Assembly: GCA_017414435.1 (NCBI GenBank)
Contig: JAFQMN010000006.1
Coordinates: 62,001-126,000, forward strand
DNA from: Oscillospiraceae bacterium
GTDB taxonomy: Bacteria > Bacillota > Clostridia > Oscillospirales > Ruminococcaceae
Length of the DNA: 64,000 nucleotides
Direction of reading: 5' to 3'
In this document: in pieces, positions 13,496-17,199 of the stretch
Position numbering within the stretch: the stretch's first letter is position 1
Layout of the letters: each line of letters begins with the position of its first letter
Made by a program: the position numbers and the translations under genes
The notes under the pieces: generated by a model
What the model was told of the DNA's origin: nothing
The model's database searches: none
What the model saw: only the letters and a program-made list of their open reading frames with translations

Positions 13496-14410
13496 ATGAT
13501 TAACGGGCAAGAAAAAAAATTGTTAGAATTTGCAGAAAGTTTAAATATAGTTGTTTTGAAAAATGAACCTATGGCAAAGCATACAACTTTTAAAATAGGA
13601 GGTTTTGCCGATTTATTTATAACTGTAGATACAGAAGAAAAATTAGAGGCATTGATTAAATTTTTATATAAAAATGCTATAGATTACCGCATTATAGGCA
13701 ATGGGTCTAATTTATTGGTTACAGATGAAAATATACATAAAGTTGTTATACAAACAACTGCCAATAAAGATAAAATAAAACTAATTGATGATACAAATAT
13801 ATATGCTTTTGCAGGTGCTTTTTTACCGCAATTGTGTGACTTTGCTTTAGAAAATGCTTTAACAGGGCTAGAATTTGCTTGTGGGATTCCGGCAAAACTT
13901 GGTGGAGCAATATATATGAATGCGGCCGCCTATGGTAGTGATATGGCCATGGTATTAAAAGAAATTTATTATATTGATGAAACAGGAAACAAACAAAAAA
14001 TCTCAGCAAACGATGCTCAGTTTGGCTATAAAAACACTATTTTTATGCATAAAAAATATACAATCACAGGTGCTCTGTTAGAGTTACAAAGTGGAAAGAG
14101 AGAGCAAATTGCAGAAAACATGCAAGAATTATTAGTAAAAAGGCGCAATAGTCAACCATTAGAATTACCGAATGCGGGTAGTATTTTTAAACGGCCCGAA
14201 GGTCATTTTGCTGGACGATTGGTTGAAGAATGTGGGTTAAAAGGCAGACGTGTGGGACAAGCTATGGTTAGTGAAAAACATGCAGGTTTTATTGTTAACT
14301 TAGGTGGAGCTAAATGTTCGGAAGTGCTTGAATTAGTAAAGATAATACAAGATGAAGTATGGCGCCAAAAAGGGGTAAAACTAGAAACAGAAATAGAATC
14401 TTTTTGTTAG
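13496..14410 (+). CDS. murB: UDP-N-acetylenolpyruvoylglucosamine reductase
   Basis: Cytoplasmic FAD enzyme that reduces UDP-GlcNAc-enolpyruvate to UDP-MurNAc. It has the type II layout of Gram-positives: H-T-T-F-K-I-G-G (about residue 25), the FAD-binding I-G-N-G-S-N-L-L (about 67), G-I-P-A-K-L-G-G-A and the catalytic N-A-G-S-I-F-K-R-P (about 225), which includes the active Ser. 304 residues is typical. hprK-murB is a normal clostridial pair, but rapZ, yvcK and whiA do not follow. Confidence 0.96.
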   Translation: MINGQEKKLLEFAESLNIVVLKNEPMAKHTTFKIGGFADLFITVDTEEKLEALIKFLYKNAIDYRIIGNGSNLLVTDENIHKVVIQTTANKDKIKLIDDTNIYAFAGAFLPQLCDFALENALTGLEFACGIPAKLGGAIYMNAAAYGSDMAMVLKEIYYIDETGNKQKISANDAQFGYKNTIFMHKKYTITGALLELQSGKREQIAENMQELLVKRRNSQPLELPNAGSIFKRPEGHFAGRLVEECGLKGRRVGQAMVSEKHAGFIVNLGGAKCSEVLELVKIIQDEVWRQKGVKLETEIESFC

Positions 14411-14415
14411 ATGAC

Positions 14416-14444
14416 TTGACATGGTATTTTAAGAATGATAAAAT
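14416..14444 (+). promoter_or_regulatory. Consensus sigma-A promoter of the ABC-F leader
   Basis: A perfect TTGACA at 14416-14421 and TAAAAT at 14439-14444 are separated by 17 bases, directly after the murB stop. It would start transcription near 14451, about 310 bases before the ABC-F start codon. Confidence 0.8.
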
Positions 14445-14483
14445 GAAAAGTGTAAATCTAGAAAGTAATTGAAGGTATATAAT

Positions 14484-14564
14484 ATGAATGGAGAATATGG
14501 TATTTTAACAATTGATTTGGCTCTGTGCAATAAGAATATTGATGTAGCATTGTATAGAGCCTGA
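14484..14564 (+). CDS. Upstream leader peptide, 26 codons
   Basis: A short ORF encoding MNGEYGILTIDL followed by 14 more residues ending in ALYRA. It starts at ATG 14484 behind GAAGG and ends with TGA at 14562-14564. It lies just downstream of the leader promoter, and its last third runs through the 5' arm of the first leader helix, so ribosome position would decide whether that helix forms. It is too short for homology judgement. A regulatory rather than a protein role is likely. Confidence 0.55.
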   Translation: MNGEYGILTIDLALCNKNIDVALYRA

Positions 14565-14670
14565 TGTTTAGCTACATCGTGCAATTTTGGTTTAGTCAGC
14601 CTGGCAGTTTTAAATATCTTTCAGGTTAAGCTATGCTTTTGCGCGATGTTATTTTAAAAAATATATTTAG

Positions 14671-14709
14671 GCCATAACTTTGCTAAAAAAGTTATGGCTC
14701 ATTTTTTTT
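14671..14709 (+). terminator. Intrinsic terminator 1 in the ABC-F leader
   Basis: An 11-bp perfect stem (14671-14681 with 14688-14698) with a six-base loop is followed by eight consecutive T at 14702-14709. It lies upstream of the ABC-F start codon, so the gene needs readthrough. Confidence 0.85.
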
Positions 14710-14747
14710 GCAGAGGGCCAACAGTTTAAGCTCTCTGCTTATTTTTT
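14710..14747 (+). terminator. Intrinsic terminator 2 in the ABC-F leader
   Basis: An eight-pair stem (14710-14717 with 14731-14738, one G-U) with a 13-base loop is followed by TTATTTTTTT. It begins immediately after the T-run of terminator 1 and ends a few bases before the SD of the ABC-F gene. Confidence 0.7.
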
Positions 14748-14763
14748 TAGGAGTGATTTTATT

Positions 14764-16293
14764 ATGGGGTTATTAAAATTAACAAATGTTTCGTACTCAT
14801 TTGGAGAGAAAATACTTTATAAAGATGCTGAATTTGAGTTGTTCAAAGGTGAACATGTGGGGCTTATTGGCAAAAATGGCACAGGCAAGACTACACTTAT
14901 TAATATGATAGTCGGCGATGTTATACCAGATTCAGGCGAAATTCGCTTACAGAAAGATATTAGTTTAGGGTATTTAGATCAATATGCAAATGTTGATGGG
15001 GACTTGAGCATATTTGACTATTTAAAAACCGCTTTTGATAAATTGTATGAGATCGAAAGAGAGTTAAATGCTATATATTCAAAAGAAGAAAACTATAACA
15101 ATTCTAAGCTGATGGAAAAGGCGTCAGATTATCAGTCGTTGTTGGTAAATTGCAGCTTTTACGAAATTGAGAGCAATATTTTAAAAGTAGCAGATGGTCT
15201 GGGAGTTACTGCATTAGGTATGGGAACAAAAATGGGTGAATTAAGCGGAGGGCAAAAGGCAAAAGTAATTCTTAGCAAATTGTTGCTGGGCAATTATGAT
15301 CTGCTTTTGTTAGATGAACCTACAAACTTTTTAGATAAACAACATGTAGAGTGGTTGTCTGAATATCTAAAATCATTTAAAGGAGCTTTTATTGTAATAT
15401 CTCATGATTATGCATTTCTTGATAAAGTTACTACTTGTATACTTGATATTGAATTTGCTAAGATTAAAAAGTATTCGGGCAACCTTTTTAAGGTGCTAAG
15501 TACAAAAGAGCTTCACGACAAGAGCTTTTTAAATGAATATAATGCACAACAAAAGCAGATTAAAAAATATGAAATATATATTCAAAAAAATAAAGCAAGA
15601 GCCTCTACTGCGGCTATGGCTAAAAGCAGGCAGAAACAATTAGATAAAATAGATCGTTTGGTTTTATCAAAAAGTTCGGGGAAAATAAATTTTAAATTAA
15701 ATGCAATACCAATTACTGCTAAGAGGATATTAAAAGTTGAAAATTTGCGAGTAGGTTATAGTTTTCCTATTTTACCGGCGCTTAATTTTGAATTACAATC
15801 GGATCAAAAATTAGTAATCACAGGGTTTAATGGCATTGGGAAAACAACTTTATTAAAAACTTTAATAGGGGAATTACAACCGCTATCTGGGCAGTTTGAA
15901 TTTGCTAGCAACGTGAAGATAGGCTATTTTGAGCAAGATTTTAAATGGCAAAATAAATCAATAACACCAATAGATATTGTATTAGATAAATTTCCTAAGC
16001 TTTCAGAAAAACAAATCCGCAGCAGTTTGGCTCAATGTGGAGTTAATGCAAAAAACGCCTTGCAACCAATTAGCACACTTAGCGGAGGAGAGCAATCCAA
16101 GGTGAAGTTATGCCTGTTAAGTCTTACATCTGCAAATTTTTTAATATTAGATGAACCGACAAATCATCTTGATATAGATGCAAAAGAAGTGTTAAAACAA
16201 GAGTTAAAGAATTGGCAAGGAGGAATGATTTTGGTGTCGCATGAGAAAGAATTTTATGCCGATTGGTGTGATGAAATCCTTGAGATAAAGTAA
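14764..16293 (+). CDS. ABC-F family ATPase (ribosome-acting)
   Basis: Soluble protein with two ABC ATPase domains and no membrane segment. The first has Walker A GKNGTGKT (about residue 38), LSGGQKAK and LLLDEPTNFLD. The second has GFNGIGKT, LSGGEQSK and LILDEPTNHLD. A charged linker of about 80 residues connects them. ABC-F proteins bind the ribosomal E site; some relieve stalling and others give resistance to ribosome-targeting antibiotics, and sequence alone does not tell which. I chose ATG 14764 (AGGAG upstream) rather than an upstream ATG at 14680, which lies inside terminator 1. The leader implies inducible expression. 509 residues. Confidence 0.88.
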   Translation: MGLLKLTNVSYSFGEKILYKDAEFELFKGEHVGLIGKNGTGKTTLINMIVGDVIPDSGEIRLQKDISLGYLDQYANVDGDLSIFDYLKTAFDKLYEIERELNAIYSKEENYNNSKLMEKASDYQSLLVNCSFYEIESNILKVADGLGVTALGMGTKMGELSGGQKAKVILSKLLLGNYDLLLLDEPTNFLDKQHVEWLSEYLKSFKGAFIVISHDYAFLDKVTTCILDIEFAKIKKYSGNLFKVLSTKELHDKSFLNEYNAQQKQIKKYEIYIQKNKARASTAAMAKSRQKQLDKIDRLVLSKSSGKINFKLNAIPITAKRILKVENLRVGYSFPILPALNFELQSDQKLVITGFNGIGKTTLLKTLIGELQPLSGQFEFASNVKIGYFEQDFKWQNKSITPIDIVLDKFPKLSEKQIRSSLAQCGVNAKNALQPISTLSGGEQSKVKLCLLSLTSANFLILDEPTNHLDIDAKEVLKQELKNWQGGMILVSHEKEFYADWCDEILEIK

Positions 16294-16304: not shown

Positions 16305-16333
16305 TTGACAAACGTTGATGTATAAACTATTAT
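16305..16333 (+). promoter_or_regulatory. Sigma-A promoter of the secreted hypothetical gene
   Basis: TTGACA at 16305-16310 and TATTAT at 16328-16333 with a 17-base spacer, about 35 bases upstream of the chosen ATG. It begins only 11 bases after the ABC-F stop. Confidence 0.75.
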
Positions 16334-16368: not shown

Positions 16369-17199
16369 ATGTTGAAGAGCATGAAAAGATTTGTAATTGT
16401 TATACTAGCAGTAGTTATACAGGTAAGCGGAATAGTAGTTGATACAACAATTAAAACTTGTGCAGCACCACCAGTAGATGAATTTATTTCAACTTTATGT
16501 GAAACAAATATTTTAATGAATGCTTGTGGAATGCCATGTTGGCCAAATGACCAACATGATATAGAGCTCGGCAAGGTTATTAAAGCATTGCGTGAAAATC
16601 CAGAGGGGATTGATACGTTAGTTAGAAAAATTCATACAGAGGTCAAAAATGTTTTAAAATCTTTTTATAGCTTTAACCCACAAAGGAAAAAGTCAATTAA
16701 GGATAATGTAATCTCTTTTGAACTTACTTATGTAAATTCTAATGATGTAGATGATATATTCAAAGAAATTATGGGTGGGCAGGTTATGGCAATAGATATT
16801 AGATATAAAGACATACCTTTAAGTTATGGAGCAAAAATTATGACAGCATTAATTGAAAAAATAATAAAACCAAAAGAAGAAAAAAGCAAGATGCGCTTTA
16901 TGTTTCAACCTGAACCAGAAAAGAAGGAACCAGATAAAAAGCAAGTACAACTAGCCCTTTATAGGGCGGGAATGGTAGCATTAGATTTAGGTATTGCCCC
17001 GGAAGAGACAAAAAAATGGTTTGGTGAAGATCTTTCGGCATATATGACATTATTAGGAATTAGAACGATATCTGCCATTAAAGCCAAGAGTGAGTTCGAA
17101 GCTAAAAGTGGTTTAAAAACAAAAGATGAATGTAGAACTGAAGATGAGTTTAAAGCGCCATCTGTTAAGAAAGTAATTGAAAGTGTAGACACCGAATAA
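16369..17199 (+). CDS. Predicted secreted protein, unknown function
   Basis: I do not recognise a family. The N-terminus MLKSMKRFVIVILAVVIQ is a Sec signal peptide with a probable cleavage after T-C-A (about residue 30). The mature part, about 245 residues, has two early cysteines in N-A-C-G-M-P-C that could form a disulphide, a predicted mixed helical region, a lysine- and glutamate-rich stretch around residue 180 and a charged C-terminus. I chose ATG 16369 because GAGGGAG precedes it and the promoter lies just upstream; a longer frame from 16315 would start inside the promoter. It has its own promoter. Confidence 0.6.
   Translation: MLKSMKRFVIVILAVVIQVSGIVVDTTIKTCAAPPVDEFISTLCETNILMNACGMPCWPNDQHDIELGKVIKALRENPEGIDTLVRKIHTEVKNVLKSFYSFNPQRKKSIKDNVISFELTYVNSNDVDDIFKEIMGGQVMAIDIRYKDIPLSYGAKIMTALIEKIIKPKEEKSKMRFMFQPEPEKKEPDKKQVQLALYRAGMVALDLGIAPEETKKWFGEDLSAYMTLLGIRTISAIKAKSEFEAKSGLKTKDECRTEDEFKAPSVKKVIESVDTE

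Follow-up and report, generated by a model that had tools for sequence, protein, structure and literature searches.

The DNA analysed here, a stretch of 64,000 nucleotides (the window), holds a leader between murB, which ends at position 14410, and an ABC-F gene (14764-16293). The question raised by this locus is whether the leader controls the gene and, if so, by what signal. An earlier note, made from the sequence alone, proposed that ribosomes stalling on an upstream open reading frame (uORF) open the gene by attenuation. We present here a comparison of the leader with its relatives, which strongly supports the core of that idea and corrects its pairing logic, in which a hairpin, P1, had been overlooked and the antiterminator misplaced. 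The leader is, with good confidence, to be read as a ribosome-sensing transcription attenuator of the ABC-F gene and a divergent relative of the uup RNA (Rfam RF03060). The uup RNA has so far been catalogued without a mechanism, and the comparison offers one that can be tested, a ribosome-sensing attenuator whose parts are defined.

Locus and leader features

The window belongs to a nearly complete genome of 0.94 Mb. The ABC-F gene scores 390.2 bits against NCBIfam NF000355 (ribosomal protection-like ABC-F; cut-off, 380), and by this model its product is classed as ribosomal protection-like, with a putative role in resistance. It is far under the cut-offs of the named ARE subfamilies Vga, Lsa, Msr, OptrA, Sal, and CplR. 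Its nearest solved chain by sequence is YbiT, and it is the sole match in the genome to the linker domain PF12848. Immediately 3′ of the gene, an ORF at 16369-17199 has a signal-peptide-like N-terminus, no NCBIfam match, and its own promoter-like site at 16305-16333.

The features of the leader are listed in Table 1. The consensus promoter, the 26-codon uORF with its own Shine-Dalgarno (SD) sequence, and the two back-to-back intrinsic terminators before the ABC-F gene all lie where the earlier note had placed them. The same promoter is also present in L031, the leader of the sole same-genus relative found, a rumen genome labelled Oscillospiraceae; L031 is of the same type as the window leader.

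Table 1. Features of the ABC-F leader and gene (window coordinates)
Feature	Positions	Strand	Details	Basis
Promoter	14416-14444	+	TTGACA (14416-14421), 17 nt, TAAAAT (14439-14444); extended -10 TG	11/12 consensus matches
uORF SD	14471-14475	+	GAAGG, 8 nt 5′ of ATG	Sequence
uORF	14484-14564	+	26 codons, MNGEYGILTIDLALCNKNIDVALYRA; traverses P1; ATG 14484, TGA 14562-14564	Predicted
P1	14519-14561	+	Hairpin, arms 14519-14531 and 14549-14561; proposed anti-antiterminator, uup RNA-like	RF03060 match, covariation
Helix A	14541-14578	+	P1 loop GATGTAGC (14541-14548) with GCTACATC (14571-14578), 8/8 pairs	Permutation, covariation
P2	14574-14649	+	14574-14584/14639-14649 (10/11 pairs) plus upper helices; base competes with helix A	Folds
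AT1 (antiterminator)	14545-14685	+	14559-14564/14667-14672 plus 14545-14549/14681-14685; P2 nested inside	Complementarity, folds
AT2 (candidate)	14517-14721	+	P1 5′ arm/T2 5′ arm, 14517-14530/14708-14721 (one mismatch), or T1 3′ arm/T2 5′ arm, 14695-14700/14715-14720	
T1 (first intrinsic terminator)	14670-14709	+	Stem 14670-14681/14688-14699, T8	Scan and folds
T2 (second intrinsic terminator)	14710-14748	+	Stem 14710-14718/14730-14738, tail TTATTTTTTT	Folds
ABC-F SD	14749-14753	+	AGGAG	
ABC-F protein	14764-16293	+	509 aa	NCBIfam NF000355 and PF12848 matches

Relatives and the uup RNA

The comparison covered 18 leaders: that of the window, L031, 13 above the RF03060 cut-off (L098, L104, L105, L106, L107, L116, L117, L118, L119, L123, L124, L125, and L126), and 3 below it (L108, L114, and L121). 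Further leaders were gathered by searches of the family, order, and class. On inspection, no leader layout was seen after the weak RF03060 matches L109-L113 and L120/L122, and these were left out. The 17 other leaders present the uORF, P1, a helix between the P1 loop and a downstream strand, P2, T1, and often T2, mostly before ABC-F or MATE genes. The downstream gene is one of these two kinds in 16 of the 18, namely ABC-F in 8 (window, L031, L116, L098, L105, L107, L104, and L124) and MATE in 8 (L106, L114, L117, L118, L119, L123, L125, and L126); the MATE calls were confirmed by Pfam MatE for L114, L119, and L123 and read from translations for the remaining five. As the same leader type precedes MATE efflux genes, in some cases with two terminators, one sensor design appears to serve two resistance-type gene kinds, and ABC-F and MATE genes of gut and rumen Clostridia are linked through it. 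Two uup-like leaders under the cut-off stand before other genes, L108 (36.5 bits) before a SAM methyltransferase gene and L121 (30.6 bits) before an ORF without a Pfam match.

The Rfam search that the earlier note had proposed returned no family within the leader at curated cut-offs. RF03060 scores 19.1 bits at 14511-14560, under its cut-off of 36.8, and for this reason we call the leader a divergent relative and do not file it as a member of the family. This segment is the top RF03060 match in its own genome (E, 0.15). The stem CTCYG...CRGAG is present 5′ of a uup/ABC-F-type gene, with compatible substitutions in 11 of 11 arm pairs. Other sub-threshold Rfam matches (SpF39, tsr26, and miRNAs) are far under their cut-offs and were dismissed. 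RF03060 is found above its cut-off in leaders of ABC-F orthologues from other genera (L074, L096, L098, and L058), and the match in the window lies precisely at the equivalent position.

The RF03060 model spans just the 48-nt P1 part and is without the uORF, helix A, antiterminators, and terminators. In the 13 above-cut-off leaders the order is uORF, P1, helix A, P2, and T1, and many have T2 as well. The window leader has the same P1 hairpin sequence and position 5′ of an ABC-F gene; it differs from these leaders in its score and in a uORF that reads P1 in another frame. It has their layout and would be expected to function as they do. The earlier view that the peptide and double terminator set this leader apart from known ones is answered in part: the element is divergent but related to a catalogued RNA, and double terminators occur in 13 of the 18 leaders.

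Conserved helices

The window leader folds better than 100 of 100 shuffles (z, -3.6), and P1 is its strongest hairpin. Helix A and P2, already described in the earlier note, are mutually exclusive because positions 14574-14578 are common to both. Across the leaders, the partner strand of helix A lies about 7 to 31 nt 3′ of the P1 loop, and the paired strands are CGATGAA/TTCATCG in most leaders and TGGCGAG/CTCGCCA in L107. When the partners were swapped among leaders, with each pairing free to choose its own register, the cognate mean was reached in 0 of 20,000 permutations, and the window pair was the best in its row and column of the swap matrix. The covariation that had been suggested as a check is present in P1 and helix A. 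Six of the eight helix A pairs are changed on both sides across the leaders, as are 11 of 19 pairs when P1 and helix A are taken together on 16 distinct leaders. In that alignment 95.1% of cells are paired, compared with 30 to 45% in slid controls, a figure that leans towards structure because the segment register was picked by the analyst.

Upstream open reading frame

An ATG-started uORF is present in all 18 leaders, starts 22 to 48 nt 5′ of P1 (36 nt in the window), and reads through the P1 5′ arm. A strict rule combining SD and uORF is passed by 15 of them, compared with 1.8 expected from shuffled flanks, which together with its recurrence in the 17 other leaders places the layout above chance. 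In the window, the ATG, the SD, and the open frame predict that the uORF, which runs into the first hairpin, can be translated.

The encoded peptide is less uniform. The uORF of L031 keeps the window's frame over its first 16 codons and stops after codon 19 (26 in the window), which makes a role for the C-terminal part of the peptide improbable. Over 11 codons, the two peptides differ by four amino-acid-changing and two silent differences. The peptide is thus poorly conserved between the two species of the window genus, which counts against the stall-sensor reading. The conservation on which the earlier note had staked its proposal holds for the helices and, for the uORF, for position and frame within the window genus, but not for the last codons. 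Purifying selection on the peptide 5′ of P1 is seen in one MATE-linked clade (pN/pS, 0.25). At the P1 arm, most uORFs encode C/S-S-x-Q, preceded by basic residues; those of the window, L031, and L105, and within the 18-leader set just these three, read the P1 RNA in another frame as DLAL[CY]N (ALCN in the window). This suggests two uORF subtypes, one frame apart, on one RNA scaffold.

As to the inducer, an Arg/Lys-X-Arg/Lys macrolide-arrest motif was rejected as the signal, as the window uORF is without it and its occurrence 5′ of P1 in 5 of 15 peptides is not significant (p = 0.08). Stall sites with a penultimate Ala or Ser are phenicol/oxazolidinone-like. A candidate residue of this kind lies at the P1 5′ arm, as Ala13 in the window and Ser in most relatives, but it is followed by Gly in three leaders. 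We take such a stall as a weak lead to the inducer.

The leading alternative to a stall sensor is a ligand-binding riboswitch, in which an aptamer of P1, helix A, and P2 would control T1 and T2 and the uORF would be incidental. Helix A provides a conserved, pseudoknot-like core, and the motif, which is listed as a cis-regulatory RNA, is discussed among riboswitch-like motifs in a 2024 review (PMC11477304); that review itself, however, reports no further evidence for riboswitch function. Our search of the literature on uup RNA function, which was not exhaustive, returned just a note that none is established. An incidental uORF is hard to square with one that enters P1 in every leader, with the strict count given above, and with the purifying selection in one clade, and most of the leaders stand before ABC-F and MATE genes, not metabolic ones. 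We regard a riboswitch as unlikely.

Terminators and antiterminators

T2 is weaker than T1 and was missed by a simple terminator scan; in L031, its 3′ arm carries two changes and the stem is kept. The antiterminator of the earlier note, 14628-14635 with 14673-14680, contains a C.A mismatch (7 of 8 pairs) and was not seen in any fold. It is replaced here by AT1, formed between the P1 3′ arm and the T1 5′ side. Cognate AT1 pairing exceeds swapped pairing among leaders (p about 0.002). Because base composition could help this swap test, a within-leader control was run, and in 14 of the 18, including the window, no other 18-nt segment upstream of T1 paired better with the T1 5′ side than the P1 3′ arm did (exceptions, L119, L108, L121, and L114). 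When the P1 5′ arm is masked and just the T1 5′ half has been transcribed, AT1 dominates the folds of all 18 leaders (8.5 to 13.7 expected pairs) and exceeds shuffled-arm controls in most; in the unmasked fold of the window, P1 dominates. The window AT1 is among the weakest of the set (-9.4 kcal/mol), which speaks against the attenuator reading. Antiterminator and terminator are predicted in silico to exclude each other, a trait that, like a uORF running into the first hairpin, marks ribosome-mediated transcription attenuators such as vmlR, ermK, and bmrB.

For T2, pairing of its 5′ arm with the T1 3′ arm is supported by a swap test (p about 0.003), and in each of the 11 T2-bearing leaders outside the window genus the T2 5′ side finds its best upstream match in the T1 3′ arm. 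In the window and L031, which are nearly identical here and are the two sequences behind this pairing, the best partner is the P1 5′ arm (13 of 14 pairs, -21.0 kcal/mol), a value matched by 0.6 to 1.6% of shuffles. AT1 and AT2 both appear along the nascent-chain folding path of the window. In equilibrium folds of the full-length window RNA, T1 and T2 win out even when the P1 5′ arm is masked; therefore, antitermination has to be kinetic.

The equilibrium dominance of T1 and T2 is equally what plain tandem terminators would give, with constant low read-through and no regulation. Against this, P1, helix A, AT1, and AT2 are conserved across leaders as alternative pairings, and the window and L031 are 93 to 97% identical from P1 to the ABC-F start, compared with 68% in the promoter and 5′ UTR and 85% in murB (83% in the uORF 5′ of P1 and 94% in the ABC-F gene fragment). 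Unregulated tandem terminators are therefore very unlikely.

Proposed mechanism and known attenuators

Sequence and comparison show the uORF position, P1, helix A, the terminators, and the AT1 and AT2 complementarity; we infer the stall itself, the sequence of steps, what helix A does, the nature of the inducer, and any change in expression. For the ribosome-sensing attenuator, the steps would be as follows. Without stress, the ribosome would clear the uORF, P1 would form, and T1 and then T2 would end transcription before the ABC-F gene. Helix A, which competes with P2, is likely to hold P1 locked in a pseudoknot in this off state. An elongating ribosome that stalls at roughly uORF codons 9 to 16, where its leading edge covers the P1 5′ arm, would leave the P1 3′ arm free to capture the T1 5′ side once transcribed, with P2 nested inside AT1, and T1 would not form. 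T2 would be opened in the relatives by the released T1 3′ arm taking the T2 5′ arm, and in the window genus the P1 5′ arm may take it instead. The leading edge of a ribosome at a start codon lies about 16 nt downstream (toeprint distance, PMC9226507). Start-codon arrest would therefore fall short of P1, and an elongation-stage inhibitor is expected.

By analogy, the same logic is found in the vmlR leader of B. subtilis, whose attenuation mechanism was shown experimentally (PMC9226507): the uORF lies inside an anti-antiterminator hairpin that is opened by a stalled ribosome, an antiterminator with an apical hairpin blocks the intrinsic terminator, and the gene is ABC-F. The vmlR uORF has 3 codons (MIN), which suits initiation-stage drugs, and the leader has a single terminator, whereas the window leader has a 26-codon uORF that starts well before P1, two terminators, and a loop helix. 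The cplR leader of C. difficile (PMC10201436) also controls an ABC-F gene through a uORF and early transcription termination; it differs in its MR[I/M] tripeptide, likewise suited to initiation-stage drugs, and in a terminator stem that hides the SD. The bmrB-bmrCD leader of B. subtilis (PMC4191407) differs in its 53-aa leader peptide, a single terminator inside the ORF, and an ABC transporter that is not ABC-F. It is possible that the inducer is new.

Translation attenuation, in which the switch would chiefly hide or free the ABC-F ribosome binding site, has a precedent in the two layers combined by cplR and vmlR (PMC10201436, PMC9226507) and a candidate helix in 14648-14655 with the ABC-F SD region 14750-14757, but this helix is confined to one masked fold of the window and two terminators with T-runs precede the SD, which leaves it the least probable reading.

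For the uup RNA class as a whole, we lean slightly towards a more general model. All members would be stall sensors with a two-step "domino" antitermination, in which the P1 3′ arm takes T1 and the T1 3′ arm takes T2, with a P1-loop helix as off-state lock and with ABC-F and MATE genes as targets; in the window genus, the P1 5′ arm would have taken over step two and the uORF would have shifted to another frame. The rule offered for serial terminators is that every freed arm disarms the next one.

Other leaders

The window-type leader is absent from the sister genus g149, whose ABC-F protein is 60% identical, a point against the attenuator reading. The leaders found there, L069 and L070 (genomes G208 and G267; about 1 to 190 nt before the ABC-F start), carry the palindrome AACCTCTTAATAATTTGACATTATTAAGAGGTT over the promoter and a possible 4-codon uORF (MANF), with no clear SD, in a terminator-like hairpin, CCATGGC...GTCGTGG, with T7. 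No leader-like DNA was found in plasmids and phages. Four exact-pattern matches in IMG/VR contigs, which are catalogued as viral (L127-L130), are P1 leaders, one before an ABC-F gene and three before MATE genes, in either a phage part or a host flank.
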